NCBI GenBank assembly: GCA_017461395.1
Contig: JAFTYF010000024.1
Span: forward strand, 1-44,615
Reading direction: 5' to 3'
DNA length: 44,615 nucleotides
From: Ruminococcus sp.
Lineage (GTDB): Bacteria > Bacillota > Clostridia > Oscillospirales > Ruminococcaceae
In this document: piece by piece, positions 2,580-16,508 of the stretch
How the letters are laid out: each line of letters begins with the position of its first letter
Position numbering within the stretch: position 1 is the stretch's first letter
Translations under genes and position numbers: made by a program
The notes under the pieces: generated by a model
What the model was told of the DNA's origin: nothing
Seen by the model: the letters and a program-made list of their open reading frames with translations, nothing else
Database searches by the model: none

Positions 2580-4035
2580 TTTCTTCTCCCTGCTGAGCTT
2601 CCATAATTGCAATATCTTCTTCAATCTTCTCCTGATTCTTTAAGTGTTCTTCATAGGTTTCAGAGAAGAAGGTTTCTTCGGTATAAATATTTGCGATAAA
2701 GTAGAAATAATCACTCGGCTGACACTTAAGAACAGCGTCAATCGCTTCTATACCAGGATTGCAGATAGCTCCGGGCGGGAGTCCTGCACTAAGATATGTA
2801 TCGTATGCTTCGATCATAGCCTTGTTGTATACATCCTGATTAGGCTTGATTACAAAATTTGAATAATTTGAAGTTGGGTCAGATTCAAGCTTCGGGAATA
2901 CATCCGGATTGTTAAGACGATTCCAGAAAACTGACGCAACCATCGTCATCATGTTAGAAGTAGCTGCTTCCTTCTGAACGATTGAAGCAAATGTAATCAG
3001 CTCATCGAGTGAAAGATCAAGCTCTTCCATACGTTTAAGGCGATCTTCTGTCATCTTGTTGTTGAAGTTGAGATATATCTTCTGACATACCTTTTCCGGT
3101 CCCATTTCTTCATAGAAATAATATGTATCATGGAAAACATAGCCTTCCATAGGCTTGAATTTCAGCTGCGGATCAATAGGAAGCATATCTTCAAATTCAA
3201 ATCCGTATCCGGCAGCATTGAAATAGAACATGAAATCTTCTGAGCTGCATACATTGTTTTCTTCAAGTATCTGAGCTGCATCAAAAATAGTGATTCCTTC
3301 CGGGAAAGTAACCTCTACCATGTTTTTGTTTTTCTCGTCATCAGTTGTAAGATTCTGAATAATTGTTTCATATGCCATGTTTGCACGGATAAAATGCTCA
3401 CCAGGAATGAACAGCGAATCTGATTTTCTCAGACGCGAGAATAAAACGAAGAATTTCGGTGATTTAATAATTCCTTCGTCTTTGAGCTGCTGAGCGATTT
3501 CTTCTGTTGTAGCGCCTTCTTCAATAACAATAAGCTTTGTGGTATCACTTTTTTCGATACCAAGCATATCACGTCCGAAAACGATTATAACCATTGCAAG
3601 AACAATTGAAACTGCAAAAATAAATGTTGTGAGAATAAGTACACCCGGAAGACGGCTGCGCTTTTTCTTTTTCTTCTTCTTTTTCTTTCTGGGTGCACTT
3701 CTCTGCGGAGGATATTCATTTCCGGCAGGATATGCGTATTCATCCGGATAAATTTCATTTTCCTGATACGGAGTATTTTCCGGATAATCTTCTTCAGCCA
3801 CAGGATATTCTGGTTCATCATGATAATAATTCTGATTATCATTCCGGAAAACGTCTTCTGCAGCAGTGATCTCTGGTTCTGGTACGTCGTATTCCGGAGC
3901 TTCTTCCGGAATATAATCGTTATTGGTTTCTGAGGAAGCCGAAAGCAGTTCTGAAAGCTCCTCATCGGGTGGAGAACTTTTTTTGCTGTCGAGTTCATTT
4001 AAAATATCATTAATAAGATCGTCATTATTCGGCAT
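2566..4035 (-). CDS. mltG: Endolytic murein transglycosylase MltG (YceG-like)
   Basis: Encodes 489 residues. MltG cuts growing glycan strands at the outer face of the membrane and so sets glycan length. The first ~115 residues are acidic, Pro/Tyr-rich and cytoplasmic. Then come nine consecutive lysines (117-125), one membrane segment at about 128-153, a LysM-like part, and the YceG catalytic domain. The catalytic Glu is Glu356 in ASIVQKEA, followed by LESDPTSNY and GLPPGAICNPG, all family hallmarks. The long low-complexity cytoplasmic head is much larger than in E. coli MltG. The gene overlaps the end of the cyclo-ligase gene by 11 nt and the U32 start by 14 nt, indicating tight translational coupling. 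Confidence 0.93.
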   Translation of the reverse strand: MPNNDDLINDILNELDSKKSSPPDEELSELLSASSETNNDYIPEEAPEYDVPEPEITAAEDVFRNDNQNYYHDEPEYPVAEEDYPENTPYQENEIYPDEYAYPAGNEYPPQRSAPRKKKKKKKKKRSRLPGVLILTTFIFAVSIVLAMVIIVFGRDMLGIEKSDTTKLIVIEEGATTEEIAQQLKDEGIIKSPKFFVLFSRLRKSDSLFIPGEHFIRANMAYETIIQNLTTDDEKNKNMVEVTFPEGITIFDAAQILEENNVCSSEDFMFYFNAAGYGFEFEDMLPIDPQLKFKPMEGYVFHDTYYFYEEMGPEKVCQKIYLNFNNKMTEDRLKRMEELDLSLDELITFASIVQKEAATSNMMTMVASVFWNRLNNPDVFPKLESDPTSNYSNFVIKPNQDVYNKAMIEAYDTYLSAGLPPGAICNPGIEAIDAVLKCQPSDYFYFIANIYTEETFFSETYEEHLKNQEKIEEDIAIMEAQQGEENGNE

Positions 4036-4603
4036 TGCAAAGCACCGTCCTTTCTTCGGTTACAATCAAGTCTGTTCTGATGTCATGCGGCAGAACCGGA
4101 AGTTTTGGAACAACCAGTTTTTCATAGGAAAGAGCAATTTTATGTATCTTTACATTCGCTGCAAGAAATCTGTCATAAAATCCTCCACCGTAGCCAAGAC
4201 GACCGCCTGTTTCTGTAAAGGCAAGTCCCGGAAGAATACACACAGATCTTTCTGTCAGCACAGGAGAGGGAAGAGATATATCCGGTTCACGAATCCCGAA
4301 CTTTCCGTTATTGCTGACAGTAAGCTGACTGGCAGAGGAAACAATGTGAAAAGTCATTTCTGAATTGTCACCGCAGAGGGGATAGGCTAGCACAGCATTG
4401 CTCTCGTAGAGTCTTTCTGCAATATCCCATGTATTTATTTCCGAGCCGAACGAAGCATATATCAATATAACATCAGCATCTTTTATAAGTTTCTCCGACA
4501 GCAGCCGTTTTGCAATAGCATCATCTTTTTCAAAAGTTTTTTCAGCTTTTCTTACAGCTGAAAAATACTGACGGAGCTGTTTTTTATCTCTAATATCAAT
4601 CAT
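4025..4603 (-). CDS. 5-formyltetrahydrofolate cyclo-ligase
   Basis: Encodes 192 residues, the usual size. It uses ATP to convert 5-formyl-THF to 5,10-methenyl-THF in the cytoplasm and so returns stored folate to the one-carbon pool. The hallmark GYGGGFYDR is at residues 137-145, following LPGLAFTETGGRL. It lies in the thyX operon, and ThyX consumes methylene-THF, so the folate link makes sense. It overlaps mltG by 11 nt and the DJ-1 gene by 8 nt. The family is also called YgfA/MTHFS. Confidence 0.93.
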   Translation of the reverse strand: MIDIRDKKQLRQYFSAVRKAEKTFEKDDAIAKRLLSEKLIKDADVILIYASFGSEINTWDIAERLYESNAVLAYPLCGDNSEMTFHIVSSASQLTVSNNGKFGIREPDISLPSPVLTERSVCILPGLAFTETGGRLGYGGGFYDRFLAANVKIHKIALSYEKLVVPKLPVLPHDIRTDLIVTEERTVLCNAE

Positions 4604-5138
4604 ACATTATCGCTTTACGCTGCCTGCCGCATTCAGCTAAGGAAATAGCCTTTTCAACAAGCTTAAGTCCAAAATCAATAGCGGCTCCTGCACTTCTTGC
4701 GGTAATGAAGATACCGTCCTCAGCAACGGGAGAGTCAAGGATCTCAGCGCCTTCAAGCTGCGTTTCAAATCCCTGATAGCAAACAGCTTTTTTGCCATTG
4801 AGGAGTCCTTTATGACCAAGAATAGAAGGTGCAGCACAGATAGCGCCGATATAGATATTATTAGAAACACAATAGTCTATAGCAGCCTGAACATAAGAGG
4901 ATGCCTCAAGATTAAGTGTACCTGGCATACCTCCGGGAAGAACTATCATTTCAAGTTCATCAGTCAGGGGAGCCTCCTGAGCAATGGTGTCAGTAACAAT
5001 ATTTACGCCGTGTGAGCTTGTTATTATATTGTCACCGACTCCGACAGTAATTACCTTCTTTTCACTTCTTCTGAGAAGATCAATGGGAGCTATCGCTTCA
5101 GTTTCTTCAAAACCATTTGCAAGATAAACATAGATCAT
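4596..5138 (-). CDS. DJ-1/PfpI family protein
   Basis: Encodes 180 residues from ATG at 5138 (MIYVYLANGFEETEAI). AAAGGA lies 8 nt upstream; a longer upstream reading would run into the preceding gene. DJ-1-type proteins share a flavodoxin-like fold with a reactive Cys at a nucleophile elbow, here Cys101 in IGAICAAPSIL, and a conserved Glu in FEETE. Proposed roles include protein/nucleotide deglycation, glyoxalase activity and oxidative-stress sensing; the substrate cannot be told from sequence. It lies 13 nt after the DUF2156 gene and overlaps the cyclo-ligase gene by 8 nt, within the thyX operon. Confidence 0.88.
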   Translation of the reverse strand: MIYVYLANGFEETEAIAPIDLLRRSEKKVITVGVGDNIITSSHGVNIVTDTIAQEAPLTDELEMIVLPGGMPGTLNLEASSYVQAAIDYCVSNNIYIGAICAAPSILGHKGLLNGKKAVCYQGFETQLEGAEILDSPVAEDGIFITARSAGAAIDFGLKLVEKAISLAECGRQRKAIMYD

Positions 5139-5151
5139 ATAAAAAATCCTT

Positions 5152-6036
5152 TCATTTAAAAGTAACAGTATATTTATTGAGAAGAAATGCCGGATGATAC
5201 GAAAGTTTTGATTTGCGCAGCCCTTCGATGCCCAGATCCTCTTCACGATTTATGTATTTCAATTTTTTTGCTTCATTTTCAGCAAAAAGCTTATTTATGC
5301 CGGCATATATTCCTGGGAAAGACGCATCAGCTTTTTCAATATGAACGCAGAAAGTGTTGCTGTTAATTTTTTCACCAAGAGTAACAGCGGCGATTTTTCC
5401 ATCAATTCGGATAATACCGCCCCTCAGTCCAAGCTCATTATAATGACTAAAATAAGTATTGATAGCATACTGCTCAGCAATTGATGAATGATCCGGATCA
5501 TTCATTTTGTTATTGTAGGATTGTGTACAGAAAAAAATACAGTCATCAAAATCCTTTTCAGTAACAGGGGAGTAGGTATAATTTTTCAGTTTTGCCAGAT
5601 GATTTCGCTTGCTGTGATACTTCTTTCCATTAAGCTCAATAAGATCACTAGACAGATAAATATAGTCTGAACTGTCTCTGTCGTGTTCAGCAATAAACTG
5701 TTCTGGAAAAAGTTCATTCAGAAGCGAAATAGTCATTTCTGTAACTCCTGTAAGTATCAAAGGTTTTCCCATAGAATCAGAGAAGCTTTTCATTTCGCCG
5801 ATAACTTTCATGTAATCGCCGCTCCCGGCTGGAAAGATGAAATGAGGAATATCATCTTCTGTTTCAAATGCACAGCATATATAGAAATCACGGAAGAAAG
5901 CAATTTTCGAACCAGCAAGACGCTTCCATGCCATATTATTAGCAAAGCTGTATTCGCAGCCCATAAAATCAGACTGTCTCAGTGCCGAAGTAATACGTTC
6001 TTTGTCGTTTAAGGTAATATCTCTGAATTCAAGCAT
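5152..6036 (-). CDS. DUF2156 domain protein (GNAT-fold, lysyltransferase C-terminal-like)
   Basis: Encodes 294 residues with no membrane segment. DUF2156 is a double GNAT-like fold also found at the C-terminus of MprF, which transfers Lys or Ala from tRNA to phosphatidylglycerol. Typical motifs are SKRNHLAKLKN near the middle and YINREEDLGIEGLRKSKLSYHP near the end. This stand-alone form lacks the MprF flippase, so its acceptor is unknown; an aminoacyl-tRNA-dependent or acyl-CoA-dependent transfer is possible. It starts 2 nt after the end of thyX, so the two are surely co-transcribed. Confidence 0.85.
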   Translation of the reverse strand: MLEFRDITLNDKERITSALRQSDFMGCEYSFANNMAWKRLAGSKIAFFRDFYICCAFETEDDIPHFIFPAGSGDYMKVIGEMKSFSDSMGKPLILTGVTEMTISLLNELFPEQFIAEHDRDSSDYIYLSSDLIELNGKKYHSKRNHLAKLKNYTYSPVTEKDFDDCIFFCTQSYNNKMNDPDHSSIAEQYAINTYFSHYNELGLRGGIIRIDGKIAAVTLGEKINSNTFCVHIEKADASFPGIYAGINKLFAENEAKKLKYINREEDLGIEGLRKSKLSYHPAFLLNKYTVTFK

Positions 6037-6881: not shown

Positions 6882-7024
6882 TACGATACCATATAATTTT
6901 TTATAATTCGGATTACCACAATATATGATTAGTCAGAATGAACAAAAAAGTTTATGAAACACCGCTCTTGTTATACTGATATTTGTGCAAAAGGTGACAA
7001 AATGAAGAAAATTTCAATTTGCTA

Positions 7025-7053
7025 TGGACAAATCAAAAAAAATATTGTATAAT
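7025..7053 (+). promoter_or_regulatory. Sigma-A promoter of the lipoprotein gene
   Basis: TGGACA (7025-7030), a 17-bp spacer, and TATAAT (7048-7053), followed by GGAGGA and the ATG at 7097. The 140 bp between this and the thyX promoter are AT-rich and show no other clear signal. Confidence 0.8.
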
Positions 7054-7096
7054 GATATGGTATATGGAATATATTCACTTAATCGGAGGAATTCAA

Positions 7097-8356
7097 ATGA
7101 AAAATATGAACAAATTTGCAGCTGCTGCACTTTCTTTTGCAATAGCTGCTGTTTCAACCGGATGTTCTGCGCCTGGCGCACCGACAATCGGCAACGGTAC
7201 AAAAAATGCTGCAACAATCGACGGATATGAAGTTCCCGCCGGAGTTTTTATCGCTTTTGAGCTTGGAGCGTATGACAATGCTGTAAACCAGTATATTGCC
7301 AGCACAAGCGCAATGCCTACCCCTGACGACGTAAAGAAGTTCCACATTGAAGGCACGGATTCTTCCACATGGATTCAGGATCAGGCAACAGAACAGTGCC
7401 GTCAGTTTGTAGCAATCGAAAAAGAATTCGAAAAGATCAATGCATCTCTCACCGACGAGGAGGAAGATCAGATAGAGGATGGTCTTAAATCACTGTCTCA
7501 GACAATCCGTGATTACTATGAAAATAACGGTGTAGGCGAAGAATCTCTGAAAAAAATCGCTGCTTTTGAGTTCAAGGTAAACCATGTATTTGAGCATTAT
7601 TATGGTATCGACGCACCAAATGGATGTTCTGAGGAAGATCTTAAACAGTACTATCTTGACAACAATGCAAGAGTTAAGTATATCGAAATCAAAACTGCTG
7701 ACAGTCAGGGCAATAAGTACGATGAAGATACGATCCACGATCTCGAAAAAATGGCTGACAGTTATGTAAAACAGATCAACGCAGAAAAGGATAACGATTC
7801 AAAGCTTGCCAAAATGGACGAGCTTAAGGAAGAATATACAGAGTATGCTGCTGCAATTACAACGACAGTTTCCGGACAGACAACAGCTGCTACAACCACT
7901 ACTACAACAACCACTACAACTACTACTGACGCAACTGCAACAACTACAACTACAGATCCCCATGCAAATGAAAAGATCATTGCAAAGATCGCAACAACTA
8001 CAGCTGCTGCCGGCAGTGAATCAATATCAACTGAGCCGGTTGAAAAAACTGACTCTGAAAAGGCTGCTGAAAATTTCGATACAAAAATCTTCGGAAGCGA
8101 TATGCCGCTGTACAAAGCTGAAAAGTATCAGTACGATGACAATACGATCTATGTTATCATCAAAGCCGATTTGGAAGAGCGTATGAACGCTGACGACCTT
8201 TGGACTGAGGAATTCATGGACGCTCTTATCCAGCAGAGATATTCTTCAGCATTCGCTGACTGGATTGACGATATTGCAAAAAATTATTCTCTTGAAAAGA
8301 ATAAATCCGCTTATAAGCGCTACGAACCATTCAAGCTTGAACTTGAACAGGAATAA
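7097..8356 (+). CDS. PrsA/SurA-like lipoprotein with Thr-rich linker
   Basis: Encodes 419 residues from ATG at 7097, with GGAGGA 6 nt before it. The signal peptide ends in lipobox VSTGC, so Cys23 should be lipidated and the protein tethered outside the membrane. Residues of about 35-240 resemble the helical chaperone part of PrsA/SurA foldases, ending in a stretch (YYLDNNARVKYIEIK) like the entry to a parvulin domain. In place of an evident catalytic parvulin domain there is a Thr/Ala-rich linker (about 255-315) and then about 100 more residues. It may be a chaperone for secreted proteins; isomerase activity is not supported. The gene stands alone, divergent from thyX. Confidence 0.75.
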   Translation: MKNMNKFAAAALSFAIAAVSTGCSAPGAPTIGNGTKNAATIDGYEVPAGVFIAFELGAYDNAVNQYIASTSAMPTPDDVKKFHIEGTDSSTWIQDQATEQCRQFVAIEKEFEKINASLTDEEEDQIEDGLKSLSQTIRDYYENNGVGEESLKKIAAFEFKVNHVFEHYYGIDAPNGCSEEDLKQYYLDNNARVKYIEIKTADSQGNKYDEDTIHDLEKMADSYVKQINAEKDNDSKLAKMDELKEEYTEYAAAITTTVSGQTTAATTTTTTTTTTTTDATATTTTTDPHANEKIIAKIATTTAAAGSESISTEPVEKTDSEKAAENFDTKIFGSDMPLYKAEKYQYDDNTIYVIIKADLEERMNADDLWTEEFMDALIQQRYSSAFADWIDDIAKNYSLEKNKSAYKRYEPFKLELEQE

Positions 8357-11429: not shown

Positions 11430-12086
11430 TTGAGGAATATGGTATCAGCTTCTGTGCTCAGCGCAGATATGCTCAACCTTAAAGAGGAAATAAAACGAAT
11501 GGAGAAAAGCGGCATTGAAATGCTGCATTTCGATGTAATGGATGGGATTTTCGTAAATAATATTACTTATGGTCTCCCCATTCTTGAACAGGTGAGAAAA
11601 ACAACAGATCTTATTCTTGACGTTCATCTTATGATCGCTGATCCGCTCAGATATGTCAGACGTTTTGCAGAATGCGGGGCTGATTATATTTCCTTTCACA
11701 TTGAAAGTGAAAGTGATACAGCAGAGACGCTCAGGGCAATAAGAGAATCCGGTGTAAAAACAGCTCTTGCTATAAAGCCGGCAACTCCTGCAGAAGCTGT
11801 CTTTGAATATCTTGATCAGCTTGATATGGTACTCGTAATGACAGTTGAACCTGGCTTCGGAGGACAGAATTTTATCCCTGAAACAGTGGAGAAGGTTCGT
11901 ATAATCCGTGAAAGAATCAGTTCAATGGGACTTGATATCAGAGTCGAAGTTGACGGCGGAATCAACGATGTCACATCTGATTGCGTTATCAATGCCGGAG
12001 CAGATACTCTTGTATCAGGAAGCTATCTGTTCAAAGCAGAAAATATGGCTGAGGCAGCCGGAAAGCTCAGGCGTGAGGGAATATGA
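11430..12086 (+). CDS. rpe: Ribulose-phosphate 3-epimerase
   Basis: Encodes 218 residues from TTG at 11430, or 215 from ATG at 11439. GGAAGAAG upstream fits the TTG better, while the protein start MVSASVLSADM looks natural. Rpe interconverts ribulose 5-phosphate and xylulose 5-phosphate in the pentose phosphate pathway. It is a TIM barrel with metal ligands His and Asp in LHFDVMDGIFV and DVHLMI. The hallmark VEPGFGGQNFIP and the catalytic Asp in VEVDGGIN are present. It is first in a long plus-strand cluster and overlaps the Rnf-like gene by 4 nt (ATGA), so the two are translationally coupled. Confidence 0.94.
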   Translation: MRNMVSASVLSADMLNLKEEIKRMEKSGIEMLHFDVMDGIFVNNITYGLPILEQVRKTTDLILDVHLMIADPLRYVRRFAECGADYISFHIESESDTAETLRAIRESGVKTALAIKPATPAEAVFEYLDQLDMVLVMTVEPGFGGQNFIPETVEKVRIIRERISSMGLDIRVEVDGGINDVTSDCVINAGADTLVSGSYLFKAENMAEAAGKLRREGI

Positions 12087-13093
12087 CAAAAACTGCCAGG
12101 AAAGAGCGCCTTATATGGCTTGACATAATGATAACGCTTGTCGCTCTGGAGCTTATGTCGTGTTTCTATTATGGTCTGAGGTCGATCGTGCTCGGAGGTG
12201 TCTGCATAGCCGTTTCACTTATAACGGAAATATTATGTCTGCGACTTATGAATAGACAATTTACTGCAGATGATCTGACCTGTACGTCCGATGCTCTCAT
12301 TATTGCATTGATGATGCCTGCTACAATGGACTACGGAATTGCAGGCATAGCCTGTGTTTTTGCAGTCGTTGCCGCAAAGAATGTATTTGGCGGACGAAGA
12401 AATATCATCTTCTCACCTGCGGCGGCAGCATATATTTTTATGCTGACATCATGGGAAAAGAAGCTTCTTCTCTACCCACAGCCGCATATGAGAACAGGCA
12501 TTTTCGATGAGCCTGAAGGACTTGTAAATTCAGTTTCGTATGTATACAATACAACAGGAAAAATGAATTACACTGATTTTGAACTTCTTATGGGCAATTT
12601 CAGCGGTCCTGCCGGTTCAGTAAGCATACTTATGCTTCTTATTGGTGCTGCAATGCTGATTCTCCGCAGAGATATCTCGGCAGGAGCATTTCTCGGAACA
12701 ATAACCGGAACAGCTTTTCTGAGCTATATCGTTCCTGCATCTCCGACGGCAGAAATCAGATATACATTCGTGACAAATATGGTGCTTTTTGCGGCTGTGT
12801 ATATTATTTCCGACCGCAGAATTGCTCCTAAAAAGGAGTATTATGCATTCTTCTACGGTTTGTTTATTGCAGTATTTTCGTATGTCATAGTGTTAACGAC
12901 CGGAAAGGAAAACGCCATAGTTATCGTATCTGTTCTCTTTACACCTGTGTCCTTAGGCATTAAGAATCTTGAAAAGAAAATTGAACTGGCGCATATCGAA
13001 GCCTCTGAAACAGCGGCAGAAAACTTTTCTGCTGTCGACACAACTGTAATTGAAAATTCTGATGAGAAAACGGAGGATACATCAAATGAATAA
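12083..13093 (+). CDS. RnfD/NqrB-like membrane protein lacking the FMN threonine
   Basis: Encodes 336 residues with about nine membrane segments and an acidic C-terminal tail. Homology to RnfD is seen in NVFGGRRNIIFSPAAAAYIF (about 100-119; RnfD has GG.G.N.FNPA) and in the late block FAAVYIISDRRIAP (236-249; RnfD GAFFILTDPVTAP). In RnfD that block follows SGAT, whose Thr carries covalent FMN. Here the aligned stretch is TNMV (231-234), with Val234 in place of that Thr, so flavinylation is unlikely. In full Rnf complexes RnfD is a core membrane subunit of the ferredoxin:NAD+ pump. The gene overlaps rpe by 4 nt and the RnfE-like gene by 8 nt. Confidence 0.78.
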   Translation: MTKTARKERLIWLDIMITLVALELMSCFYYGLRSIVLGGVCIAVSLITEILCLRLMNRQFTADDLTCTSDALIIALMMPATMDYGIAGIACVFAVVAAKNVFGGRRNIIFSPAAAAYIFMLTSWEKKLLLYPQPHMRTGIFDEPEGLVNSVSYVYNTTGKMNYTDFELLMGNFSGPAGSVSILMLLIGAAMLILRRDISAGAFLGTITGTAFLSYIVPASPTAEIRYTFVTNMVLFAAVYIISDRRIAPKKEYYAFFYGLFIAVFSYVIVLTTGKENAIVIVSVLFTPVSLGIKNLEKKIELAHIEASETAAENFSAVDTTVIENSDEKTEDTSNE

Positions 13094-13721
13094 AGAAAGA
13101 TCTTCTGTTTTCAGCGGTATAATCGGAAACAATATTGTTTTGTCATCGCTTATGGTCGTATCCCCTGTAATTATCTGCGGTGATACGCTGAAAAACGCTG
13201 CTGCCCTCGTTTACGCATTCAGTGCAATAACTTTTCTTTCTGTCCTGATATCATCATTTGTACCCAAAAAGCTTTCCTACACGGTGAAGGTGATCATTTA
13301 CGCCATCATCTCGTCACTGGTGTACATTCCTGTCAAGTGGGCAGCTCAGGAATTCTTTCCGGGTGCTGTTGAAAGAATAGGTATTTATTTTCCGTTGCTG
13401 GCAGTAAATTCTCTTATCATATTCCGTTCCGAAGCAGAACTTTATAAGCTCCCAAAGAACCGTATGATAATAAAGCTGATATTCTATATCCTAGGATTTG
13501 ATGCTGTCATGCTTACAACAGGATTTATCCGTGAACTTTTCGCTTACGGAACAATTAACGGCAGAATAGTTGATGTAAGTACACCGGTCATCGGACTTGC
13601 ACAGCCATTCGGCGGATTCATTTTCCTCGGATTGTTCTGCGGACTGTATCGCTGGATACGTTCCATTGTCATTAGTAAAAAAGAAGAGATAAGGGGTGAC
13701 GCTGATGTTTCTGGTAAATGA
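13086..13721 (+). CDS. RnfE/NqrD-like membrane protein lacking both iron-sulfur cysteines
   Basis: Encodes 211 residues from ATG at 13086 (MNKERSSVFSG), with GGAGG about 10 nt upstream inside the end of the previous gene. It has about six membrane segments. RnfE and RnfA normally hold one [2Fe-2S] cluster between them in the membrane through GLCP and NC motifs. Here the first motif is VVSP (Ser26) and the second is LAVNSLII (Ser109), so both RnfE cysteines are Ser at the expected positions. The flanks IGIYFPLL and FRSEAEL still match the family (IGI[YF]IPL, GRAEAF). It overlaps the RnfA-like gene by 17 nt. Confidence 0.8.
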   Translation: MNKERSSVFSGIIGNNIVLSSLMVVSPVIICGDTLKNAAALVYAFSAITFLSVLISSFVPKKLSYTVKVIIYAIISSLVYIPVKWAAQEFFPGAVERIGIYFPLLAVNSLIIFRSEAELYKLPKNRMIIKLIFYILGFDAVMLTTGFIRELFAYGTINGRIVDVSTPVIGLAQPFGGFIFLGLFCGLYRWIRSIVISKKEEIRGDADVSGK

Positions 13722-14268
13722 ACTGATAGCGCTGCTCGCTGCAAATCTCATCCTTACTCAGGCATTGGGCACAAGTACGATCTTCATTGCAGCAGGCAGC
13801 AGAAAAAATCTTGTCGGAACTGCCTTTATGATTACAGTTTTTACATTTACAGGCTCTGTTTGCGCATATTTTGCAGACAAACTGCTTCCGGAAAAATATT
13901 CTGATTTCAAACTGCTGATCTATGTTATCAGCATCGGTATATTATATGTAATTCTTCTTTCTGCGTTTTATTTTATCAGCAGAAATAACTTTGAAAATTC
14001 AAGAAAATATATTCATCTGTCGGTATTCAACTGCGCTGTTATGGGAACACTTCTTACTGTAAGCGGAAAAGCTTCTGAAAATTCGTCCATAACAGAATAT
14101 ATGTCAGCAGGACTTGAAGCTGGAATCGGCTTTATCGTTGCTGCACTTATACTTACCGCAGCCTACAGGAAACTTAACTCATCAAAGGTTCCGGCTGCTT
14201 TCAGAGGATTTCCGGCAATGATAATATATCTTGGAATAATATCAATGGCAGTTTATTCCCTTATATAA
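13705..14268 (+). CDS. RnfA/NqrE-like membrane protein with one of two iron-sulfur cysteines
   Basis: Encodes 187 residues from ATG at 13705, with AAGGGG 8 nt upstream; a GTG at 13696 is a weaker choice. It has about six membrane segments. In RnfA the motif NFVLVKFLGLCPF carries the first cluster Cys; here NLILTQALGTSTIF aligns, with Ser24 in place of Cys. The second motif FNCAVMG keeps its Cys (Cys110; E. coli TNCAVLG). The end VPAAFRGFPAMIIYLGIISM matches the RnfA C-terminus (VPAPFRG...). With the two neighbours it forms an Rnf-like D-E-A set; no RnfC, RnfG or RnfB gene is adjacent. Confidence 0.82.
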   Translation: MFLVNELIALLAANLILTQALGTSTIFIAAGSRKNLVGTAFMITVFTFTGSVCAYFADKLLPEKYSDFKLLIYVISIGILYVILLSAFYFISRNNFENSRKYIHLSVFNCAVMGTLLTVSGKASENSSITEYMSAGLEAGIGFIVAALILTAAYRKLNSSKVPAAFRGFPAMIIYLGIISMAVYSLI

Positions 14269-14302: not shown

Positions 14303-15511
14303 ATGAAATTCAAAAATAAAGGAAGGAAGATATATAAGACCAAAGAAAAAAATTATTACGGCAAAAGCGGTGCCGGCAAAGCATTTTCTGTTGGTCTTAC
14401 GATATTACTTTTAGGCGGGTTGGGATTCATTGGCTACAGCGTAGCTGAACCTCTCGTCAATTACAGCAAGAAAAAAGGGGATAAAGACGCTGTATCCCCT
14501 ACTTCAGCTGTTGTTACTTCTGAAAATGCTACGGATTCAACGACGATTCCTGTTGAAACAATGCCGGGAATTACCCCACCGCAGGGCGTGAATTTTGAAG
14601 CATATAAGGGTGCATCTCTTAAAGCTGATGATCTTTTAAGCGCCGAAGCTCTTGAGCTTGCTATCGGAAGACTTCCTACAGGACAGGGAATAGAATATCT
14701 TGCTGTTCCACTGAAAATCAGCGGCGGAGCTGTTTACTATTCAAGCGAGGTATTTTATGCAGGACCGGCAAAAGCTTCCACTGATATGCTCACTCTTGAA
14801 CAGATTGTTTCAGCTATTAATAAAGCAGGCTATAAGCCGGCAGCTGTTGTAAGCATCTTCGATGACAACCTGCTTCCTGTCACTGACGGCGGCTGCGGCT
14901 ACAGAACATATACAACCGATGAGCAGTGGATTGACAACGATGTTTCTGCCGGGGGAAAACCGTGGGCAACGCCTTACTCAGATCTTGCAGTCAGCTATAA
15001 TGCTGATATTGTAAGCGAAATATCATCCGCCGGCTTCAAAAAAGTTATTTGCAGCGATCTTGTTTTCCCACGCTTTCGTCAGAGTGATCTTGATATACTT
15101 GATCCTGAGCTTTCAACGCCTGCAAGATCAATGAAAATGACAGCCGCAGCAAATATGTTCAACGACAGAATTCTCAAAAACGGCTCTTCTATGTTTATTG
15201 AAGTTTCAGCAGCAGATATCATTATGGAAAACAATGATATCCTCCAGCCGATGCTTCTAAACGTCAATACTGTTGTTCTTGATCTCAATATTGATGAGCT
15301 TAGCAGCGGTGTTTATACGGCAGATACTGTATATGATTTTTCCGGAACTGTATCTGAAAAAGCAGAAAAAGCCGTAAATATGGTCGAGGATGACCTGTCA
15401 GAATTTAATATCGTAATAAGACTGTCAGGAGATTCCTGTTCAATGATGGACTTCGTAGAAGCTCGTGATGCACTTGTCAAAAAAGGATACGAATCCTTTA
15501 TATTAGGATAA
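14303..15511 (+). CDS. Membrane-anchored putative glycoside-hydrolase-like barrel (DUF4015-like)
   Basis: Encodes 402 residues. A basic cytoplasmic start is followed by one membrane segment at about 33-52, a Thr/Ser/Pro linker (about 65-95), and a large extracellular domain. The order of features resembles DUF4015, a glycosidase-like TIM barrel: AVVSIFDDNLLP, then WIDND, PWATPYSDLAVSYNADIVSEI, GFKKVICSDLVFPRF. The family has WxDPY...GFDEIQFDYIRFP at this place. No catalytic pair can be named with confidence, so sugar cleavage is not proven. AGGAGA lies before the ATG, 34 nt after the Rnf-like trio, so it is probably co-transcribed with it. hprK follows closely. Confidence 0.62.
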   Translation: MKFKNKGRKIYKTKEKNYYGKSGAGKAFSVGLTILLLGGLGFIGYSVAEPLVNYSKKKGDKDAVSPTSAVVTSENATDSTTIPVETMPGITPPQGVNFEAYKGASLKADDLLSAEALELAIGRLPTGQGIEYLAVPLKISGGAVYYSSEVFYAGPAKASTDMLTLEQIVSAINKAGYKPAAVVSIFDDNLLPVTDGGCGYRTYTTDEQWIDNDVSAGGKPWATPYSDLAVSYNADIVSEISSAGFKKVICSDLVFPRFRQSDLDILDPELSTPARSMKMTAAANMFNDRILKNGSSMFIEVSAADIIMENNDILQPMLLNVNTVVLDLNIDELSSGVYTADTVYDFSGTVSEKAEKAVNMVEDDLSEFNIVIRLSGDSCSMMDFVEARDALVKKGYESFILG

Positions 15512-15548
15512 TCATTAAATCCGGAATATCCGGAGAATGGAGAAAAAA

Positions 15549-16508
15549 ATGGCAGAGAATTTTAAAGTTTCATTACAGAAGGTCATAGATGAATTCAAAC
15601 TCGAGGTTATTTATATCCATAAGGATGCAAATGATCTCATGATTGATGAGAACGACGTAAACAGACCTGGACTTCAGCTTATGGGATTTTATGAGTATTT
15701 TAATCCTGAACGTATTCAGATTATCGGAAAAATGGAATTTGCATATCTTTCGACAATCGACGAAAAAACAAGACGTGAAAGACTTCAGCTGCTTTTTTCA
15801 CAGAGAATCCCTGCACTTATCATAACACGAGAGCTGCCTTATTTCGCAGAAATGCTTGAGCTTGCCAAGGAATATGACGTTCCTCTCCTCAGGAGTAAGG
15901 AGAGTACTTCAAACTTCATGTCAGGACTTATCGCTTTTCTCAACCTTACTCTTGCGCCTAGAATCACACGTCATGGAGTACTTATTGAGATTTACGGTGA
16001 AGGTGTTTTCATTACCGGAGAATCCGGCGTAGGTAAAAGTGAAACAGCTATTGAGCTTGTAAAGCGTGGTCACCGTCTTGTTGCCGATGACGCAGTTGAA
16101 ATCAGAAAGGTATCAAATATCAGTCTTGTAGGAAGTTCACCGGATAATATCCGTCACTTCCTCGAACTGCGAGGCATAGGCATTATCAATGCACGCCGTC
16201 TTTTTGGTATCGGTGCAGTTAAGATGACCGAAAAGCTTGATCTTGTTGTAGAACTTGAGCAGTGGAATCCCGAAAAAGTATACGATCGTATGGGTGTTGA
16301 TACTGAATATGTGTCGCTTCTCGGTGTAAAAGTGCCGTCTCTTACAATTCCTGTAAAGCCTGGTCGTAACCTTGCAGTAATTCTTGAAGTTGCAGCTATG
16401 AACAACAGACAAAAGAAAATGGGCTACAATGCAGCTCAGGAGCTTCTTAACCGTCTTGGCATGGATTCTGACGCAAAGGAAGTTGTTCGTGATTATGAGG
16501 CATTCTGA
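15549..16508 (+). CDS. hprK: HPr kinase/phosphorylase
   Basis: Encodes 319 residues from ATG at 15549 (MAENFKVSLQ). GGAG lies 7 nt before this ATG, while the ATG at 15537 is too close to a ribosome site. HprK phosphorylates HPr on Ser46 and removes that phosphate, linking sugar supply to carbon catabolite control through CcpA. It has an N-terminal regulatory domain, a P-loop GESGVGKSE (about 157-165), catalytic ADDAVEI, and the family signature LELRGIGIINARRLFG. It is followed by murB, rapZ and whiA, a typical Firmicutes neighbourhood. Confidence 0.95.
   Translation: MAENFKVSLQKVIDEFKLEVIYIHKDANDLMIDENDVNRPGLQLMGFYEYFNPERIQIIGKMEFAYLSTIDEKTRRERLQLLFSQRIPALIITRELPYFAEMLELAKEYDVPLLRSKESTSNFMSGLIAFLNLTLAPRITRHGVLIEIYGEGVFITGESGVGKSETAIELVKRGHRLVADDAVEIRKVSNISLVGSSPDNIRHFLELRGIGIINARRLFGIGAVKMTEKLDLVVELEQWNPEKVYDRMGVDTEYVSLLGVKVPSLTIPVKPGRNLAVILEVAAMNNRQKKMGYNAAQELLNRLGMDSDAKEVVRDYEAF

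Follow-up and report, generated by a model that had tools for sequence, protein, structure and literature searches.

What do three genes do that are clear relatives of rnfD, rnfE and rnfA, when the residues that should hold their redox cofactors are changed and the rest of the rnf operon is not beside them? The question is raised by a 44,615 nt stretch of DNA (the window, forward strand), contig JAFTYF010000024.1 of Ruminococcus sp. GCA_017461395.1, in which the three genes D, E and A lie one after the other. The genome that holds the window is a 2.08 Mb draft in 80 contigs, 93% complete, and the closest named relatives of the window are mostly labelled Ruminococcus flavefaciens or Ruminococcus sp. 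We argue here that the trio is very probably a redox-stripped Rnf core that is maintained by selection. Families, genera, genomes and loci are labelled f, g, G and L, respectively.

A preliminary description had seen three overlapping RnfD, RnfE and RnfA relatives at 12083-14268, and family searches bear this out, with D, E and A all passing their Pfam cut-offs (NQR2_RnfD_RnfE for D, Rnf-Nqr for E and A) and D predicted to adopt the RnfD fold. The NCBIfam cut-offs are missed throughout (rnfD 88.3 against 207.05 bits, rnfE 56.3 against 213.4 and rnfA 41.9 against 229.3). PF03116 is the sole Pfam domain found in D, which carries no PF00175 fusion.

Only one of the four cysteines that ligate the intramembrane [2Fe-2S] cluster is kept in the trio, and this state is fixed across the genus set. 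In alignments, E Ser26, E Ser109, A Ser24 and A Cys110 fall on the cluster cysteines of both the solved RnfE and RnfA structures (9eri, 7zc6) and the genome's own canonical Rnf, confirming the three substitutions and the retained cysteine as first described. Counts for the genus are of distinct sequences, the window included, with identical proteins counted once; set A1 is without L018, whose A is cut by a contig end, set A3 is without L020, whose E is short, and L035 and L037 are canonical and so excluded from sets A1 to A3. On this basis 84 of 84 E sequences (plus one gap) have Ser26, all 85 of 85 have Ser109, and Ser24 and Cys110 are each present in 86 of 86 A sequences. In the 80 named loci of the R. 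flavefaciens group, some of them from isolates, and in 25 further ones, serine occupies both E positions and the first A position in every sequence that covers them; the loss of these three cysteines is thus shared by the relatives. The former cluster pocket ranks with the best-conserved stretches of these proteins; E Cys31 is present in 84 of 84 sequences (plus one gap), and A His104, where canonical RnfA has proline, in at least 97%. In Acetobacterium woodii, strains mutated in the cluster cysteines are described as failing to grow, and the purified variants as lacking ferredoxin-dependent reduction of NAD+ (nicotinamide adenine dinucleotide) (Kumar et al. 2025, PMC11889175).

The flavin sites of D are also altered. 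The account of A. woodii RnfD places flavin mononucleotide (FMN) on Thr156 and assigns the binding of riboflavin to Asn123 and Asp249 (Kumar et al. 2025, PMC11889175). The canonical DxxSSAT motif around this threonine has become SxS in the genus, mostly SAS, and is absent from the window, where the FMN loop spans approximately residues 147-153 (LVNSVSY). Because the loop differs in length, the residue matching Thr156 is uncertain, falling on Ser152 or Val151 depending on the alignment, with the pairwise alignment shifting the loop. None of the alignments puts the threonine at 234, and its earlier assignment to Val234, a residue of a late helix (TNMV234LFAA), was therefore mistaken. Asn123 corresponds to Ser111, and serine replaces this asparagine in 81 of 84 genus D sequences; Asp249 corresponds to Asp244, present in 84 of 84, and Ser150 and Ser152 are found in 83 and 82 of 84. 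The aspartate of the flavin motif is glycine in the window. This aspartate has a role in recognition by ApbE, a protein that is encoded in the window's genome.

The main rival explanation takes the trio to be a redox complex still, using other cofactors: a flavin on Ser152, riboflavin held through Asp244, or a different metal in the Ser/Ser/Ser/Cys pocket, perhaps with the help of E Cys31. The invariance or near-invariance of D Ser150, Ser152 and Asp244, E Cys31 and A Cys110 across the genus fits this explanation, as does the presence of ApbE, although the loss of the riboflavin asparagine and of the flavin-motif aspartate does not, and the subunits that would donate or accept electrons (B, G, C, F) are absent at the locus. 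One canonical RnfD (L122, from a locus with all six genes present) has serine at its FMN site, and the RnfG proteins of the complete rnf operons of f4 (L275, L281, L282) read TGAS or SGAS, with serine replacing the FMN threonine. Because serine stands in these flavin motifs it may be usable, and a flavin on serine is possible in the trio. Taking both sides together, and including the evidence from more distant relatives given below, we judge a surviving redox function unlikely.

The trio shows no sign of decay within the genus. Ratios of nonsynonymous to synonymous substitution rates (dN/dS) against the two closest relatives are 0.07-0.09 for D, 0.04-0.06 for E and 0.08-0.12 for A (for more distant pairs dS is either high or not computable). 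These values, spanning 0.04-0.12, indicate that the trio is under purifying selection and refute decay within the genus. Since evolution has kept the trio intact, it probably has a new job in the membrane. The alternative that the genes are pseudogenes or products of misassembly could appeal to the 80-contig draft and to one f23 relative whose E gene contains an in-frame stop, but it is hardly credible given the low dN/dS and the identical residues in isolate genomes such as those of FD-1, 007c and ATCC 19208. Chance or sequencing error is likewise refuted by the fixation of the residues across distinct sequences of the genus.

Within the genus, D of the trio was found in 25 of 35 other genomes at 49-86% identity, with D, E and A adjacent in all 25. 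Counting the window's own, the 36 genomes divide into 23 with both the trio and a canonical RnfD, 3 with the trio only, 4 with a canonical RnfD only and 6 with neither. The window's genome belongs to the first group. RnfC, RnfG and RnfB are indeed not adjacent to the trio, as originally stated, but a complete rnfCDGEAB with its own D, E and A lies on another contig, its cluster cysteines, RnfC NADH loop and RnfD threonine all intact. This coexistence in 23 of the 26 trio genomes is what would favor the trio working in an Rnf complex with canonical C, G and B supplied from the other locus. However, the trio is present in G002 (99% complete, 5% contamination), G004 (74%) and G022 (64%), where there is no second RnfD and no RnfC above the family cut-off (RnfG, RnfB, RnfA and RnfE were not searched there), and borrowed subunits would still leave the cluster ligands missing. 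Rescue by canonical Rnf can accordingly be rejected as a general explanation, and we regard it as very improbable for the trio. From the loss of ligands, the reduced gene set and the occurrence of the trio in a 99%-complete genome where no canonical RnfC or RnfD was found, it follows that a role as a ferredoxin:NAD+ pump is very unlikely, in agreement with the preliminary description.

The locus itself is uniform. In 73 of the 80 named loci rpe, D, E, A, the gene for the DUF4015 protein and the gene we take to be hprK follow in order on one strand, and the other 7 are without an end gene, which we provisionally ascribe to contig ends. No clear gene for RnfB, RnfG or RnfC was found in these 80 loci, where two open reading frames (ORFs) of about 600 amino acids match RnfB weakly (20.6 and 29.5 bits). 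In G026 (98% complete) and G027 (90%), rpe, the DUF4015 gene and hprK adjoin and all three trio genes are jointly absent. G006 (95% complete) and G009 (99%) show no rpe match, DUF4015 gene or trio, and the region may be lost or unassembled. A second, divergent trio occurs in G020 (L118; D identity 34%), with its own rpe, mecA-cluster gene and DUF4015 gene as neighbors. L099 (JAMPAJ010000002.1), titled Alistipes sp., has the trio in the Ruminococcus arrangement and is probably mislabelled or from a mixed bin.

Reduced rnf loci are also found beyond the genus. A profile of A was searched in 216 genomes of the window's order, of which 22 were taken as reduced; ligand columns were read in 20 of these, and of the remaining two only in A of G102. 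Three further reduced loci came to light through a second D (G057, G049, G054) and one through the second copy in G020. The reduced loci take several forms. D-E-A without C, G or B occurs in four genera of the window's family, in the second G020 copy and in f23. D-x-E-A is found in f24 g116, where a gene for a secreted CAP-domain protein (L178, 3919-4689) is inserted between D and E, the place of rnfG in rnf operons. C-D-E-A with a divergent RnfC is present in f5, f9, f15 (on a contig cut off after E), g29 of the window's family and four genera of f24. This RnfC retains both CxxCxxCxxxC (4Fe-4S) motifs and has lost the GxGGxGFP NADH loop (11 aligned sequences). Genus g26, likewise of the window's family, showed canonical A only in 3 of 3 genomes.

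Ligand counts beyond the genus draw on 24 reduced loci from several families, some of them closely related. All 24 lack the second E cysteine and 23 the first, L178 being the exception; none of 23 A sequences has the first cysteine in place (in L177 a cysteine stands one residue earlier), and 12 of the 23 retain the second. The flavin sites of D are not uniformly lost, with threonine at the FMN column in 6 loci and serine in 8, and with the riboflavin asparagine kept in 18 and the aspartate in 19. These flavin counts, together with the 4Fe-4S motifs retained by RnfC of the C-D-E-A relatives, are the further points in favor of a persisting redox complex, set against D of g28, g29 and g30, which has neither serine nor threonine at the FMN column. 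L125, the second six-gene rnf locus of G053 (f19), has glycine in place of the second E cysteine and a first A cysteine displaced by one residue, possibly an early step of ligand loss.

No reduced form was seen outside the window's order in samples of 371 genomes from the class and 398 from the phylum. With profile A4, scores of at least 210 bits were reached only within the order (by 9 genomes of the class sample and 2 of the phylum sample), the top score elsewhere was 129 bits, and both A cysteines are kept in all 29 loci from outside the order for which the DNA was read. Since the sequences behind A4 are those of the reduced loci, a very different reduced A could score low and be missed.

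The genes of the locus are given in the table. All six from rpe to hprK are co-directional, and overlaps of stop and start run from rpe through A.

Features of the trio locus and one further ORF of the window
Feature	Coordinates	Strand	Remarks
Lipoprotein-like ORF	7019-8353		Long Thr run; repeat-rich ORFs arise in other frames
rpe, ribulose-phosphate 3-epimerase	11430..12086	+	Pfam PF00834, E 7e-73; usual upstream neighbor; stop overlaps D start (ATGA)
RnfD-like subunit D	12083..13093	+	PF03116 NQR2_RnfD_RnfE, E 6e-40; FMN motif degenerate (Ser152 region); Ser111 replaces riboflavin Asn; riboflavin Asp kept (Asp244)
RnfE-like subunit E	13086..13721	+	PF02508 Rnf-Nqr, E 7e-23; cluster Cys replaced by Ser26 and Ser109; Cys31 invariant in genus set
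RnfA-like subunit A	13705..14268	+	PF02508 Rnf-Nqr, E 7e-18; first cluster Cys replaced by Ser24; Cys110 kept; His104 conserved; alternative GTG start possible at 13696
DUF4015 protein	14303..15511	+	One N-terminal helix and glycosidase-like barrel; usual downstream neighbor
hprK homologue (presumed)	15537..16508	+	3' border of locus; used to show trio absence in G026 and G027

The same neighbors accompany the reduced loci in general. Among 26 such loci compared, which are not independent because four come from the window's genus and L128 and close pairs are included, rpe lies upstream in 24 and the DUF4015 gene directly after A in 17. An opposite-strand gene stands just before C or D in 10 loci, behind rpe in 9 of them, and the three tested match MecA. 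In f4 the order is rpe, complete rnfCDGEAB, DUF4015 gene (L275, L281; the stretch of L282 that was read shows no rpe); cluster cysteines, NADH loop and RnfD threonine are intact where the motif scan reached. In f3 the DUF4015 gene follows CDGEAB, and in f2 it follows B on a separate contig. A graded series of complete rnfCDGEAB, C-D-E-A and D-E-A is thus seen in one rpe/DUF4015 site. The preliminary description had included neither the intermediates with C, nor the complete operon at this site in other families, nor the DUF4015 neighbor. Most simply, the reduced loci would derive from an rpe-linked rnf operon that was stripped in place.

The frequent place of the DUF4015 gene right behind A might suggest that the trio is a scaffold or energizer for its product, which resembles a wall hydrolase. 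The gene is present in 79 of the 80 named loci, and its barrel is closest to Cwp19 and then PgaB, but a barrel match of this kind is common, C-D-E-A of f24 has no adjoining DUF4015 gene, and the gene follows complete rnf or B in other families and stays in G026 and G027, where the trio is absent. The occurrences after complete rnf and in these two genomes rule out a function tied to the DUF4015 protein alone, and we consider the scaffold explanation decidedly improbable.

In two trees of D+E+A the reduced forms make up one clade with an ultrafast bootstrap support of 100, although long branches call for care. The first tree used E of L129 up to its stop; the second was computed under one model with L129 left out, and L128 (C-D) is in neither. 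The D-E-A forms group with a support of 82, or 86 in the tree with f23 and the second G020 copy, and the C-D-E-A locus of g29 joins this group with a support of 83 or 88. A single loss of C is therefore likely but not sure. The branch order among complete rnf operons, and with it the placement of any one of them as sister to the reduced clade, is poorly supported (23-62 at the base).

From this standpoint we propose that a second, rpe-linked rnf operon was reduced in place to its membrane core of RnfD, RnfE and RnfA. RnfG and RnfB would have been lost first, along with the [2Fe-2S] ligands and the RnfC NADH loop, and then RnfC itself, leaving a core with no known electron path from ferredoxin to NAD+. 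D, E and A would still form a complex, in which the broken-helix pore of E and A may continue to open alternately to the two sides and move Na+ or H+, with the Ser/Ser/Ser/Cys pocket and the conserved His104 ruling the pore in place of the iron-sulfur cluster. The outcome would be a redox-free transporter or channel. That the trio translocates cations at all is possible but doubtful. The account as a whole, a stripped and selected core acting as a redox-free cation module on the RnfA/E pore, is derived from sequence comparison, and we put it forward tentatively, at somewhat short of an even chance.

The ion-path residues are broadly compatible with this proposal. In its treatment of the ion path, the study of the A. 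woodii complex places Na+ in RnfA/E and reports nothing that points to a path through RnfD (Kumar et al. 2025, PMC11889175). When its A. woodii numbers are transferred by the offset of the cysteines, the window retains most of the residues named there (E Arg67 as Lys, Leu103, Val106 and Glu115; A Tyr105, Leu108 and Asn112), whereas A has Gly, Tyr and Asn at the positions described as facing RnfB (Lys32, Arg154, Glu158).

Several observations weigh against a redox-free cation module. In the window A Thr111 is Phe and E Leu22 is Met, and outside the genus the ion path is less conserved: 9 of 24 reduced loci have Asn, Ser, Ala, Gly or Leu in place of E Glu115, and 15 of 23 show a change at A Tyr105. 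Na+ affinity is described as tied to reduction of the cluster (Kumar et al. 2025, PMC11889175), so that a cluster-free pore may bind Na+ poorly. The FMN and riboflavin residues are incompletely lost among the 24 reduced loci. Some lineages have decayed further: f20 (L128, G054, 2919-5170) has only C-D, with a divergent RnfC and RnfD and no E or A in the stretch, and in f23 (L129, G057) the E gene has one in-frame stop and D lacks the riboflavin aspartate. Finally, the trio is dispensable, since the two genus members G026 and G027 are without it.

A different transport function would have D act as a solute channel in the manner of its distant fold relatives, the Amt/Rh/urea channels, with E and A as partners. 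The fold is, however, common to RnfD proteins and so not special to the trio, sequence searches match RnfD/NqrB families only, and Pfam lists D under NQR2_RnfD_RnfE with no membership of the Amt/Rh/urea channel family; unlike those channels, D is moreover accompanied by E and A. We consider this explanation improbable.

The trio resembles the Rnf complex in its homologous D, E and A, in their order D-(G)-E-A, in the predicted fold of D and in the complete rnf operon found at the same rpe/DUF4015 site in f4. It differs in the absence of C, G and B from the locus, in having serine at three of the four [2Fe-2S] cysteines, in the loss of the FMN threonine motif and riboflavin asparagine, and in falling below the NCBIfam cut-offs. 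The Na+-NQR (nqrABCDEF) has a homologous core, NqrB/D/E. It recruited NqrF and kept the redox cofactors of its core, whereas the trio shows no new subunit and has lost its ligands; both flanks of the trio are genes other than nqrF or nqrA (only the neighbors were considered, with no genome search for either gene). Na+-NQR has been proposed to stem from duplication of rnf and loss of rnfB, with a recruited reductase (Reyes-Prieto et al. 2014, PMC4014512), an example of an rnf copy that changed its function after losing rnfB. The NQR/RNF-like flavinylated systems, as outlined by Meheust et al. (2021, PMC8238504), are likewise reduced relatives with an NqrB/RnfD-like membrane protein, but there RnfD is fused to a NAD-binding domain and joined by an FMN-binding protein, whereas D of the trio is the RnfD domain only.

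To our knowledge, the loss of redox ligands with retention of a selected core is new. Among the matches listed in open-access text on Rnf paralogues, reduced Rnf and R. flavefaciens Rnf there was no description of the trio, in keeping with the earlier suggestion of an undescribed Rnf-derived system, and none of the matches listed was a paper on DUF4015. The wider idea that a redox pump turned stepwise into a redox-free cation transporter or channel, with the steps visible in living relatives, the iron-sulfur switch replaced by hydroxyl and protonatable residues, and ion movement uncoupled from electron flow, is one we would entertain with about as much doubt as cation translocation itself.

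The trio genes are presumably annotated as electron transport complex subunits, and, if so, Rnf may be overcounted for this order in metagenomes of rumen and gut. How electron flow is coupled to ion movement in Rnf and NQR, and which subunit carries the ion, are debated, and a natural core that has the membrane proteins and most of the named ion-path residues without the redox ligands would allow the ion path to be studied alone. The presence of complete rnf, C-D-E-A and D-E-A in one site offers an unusual look at the dismantling of a primary pump whose core is retained.

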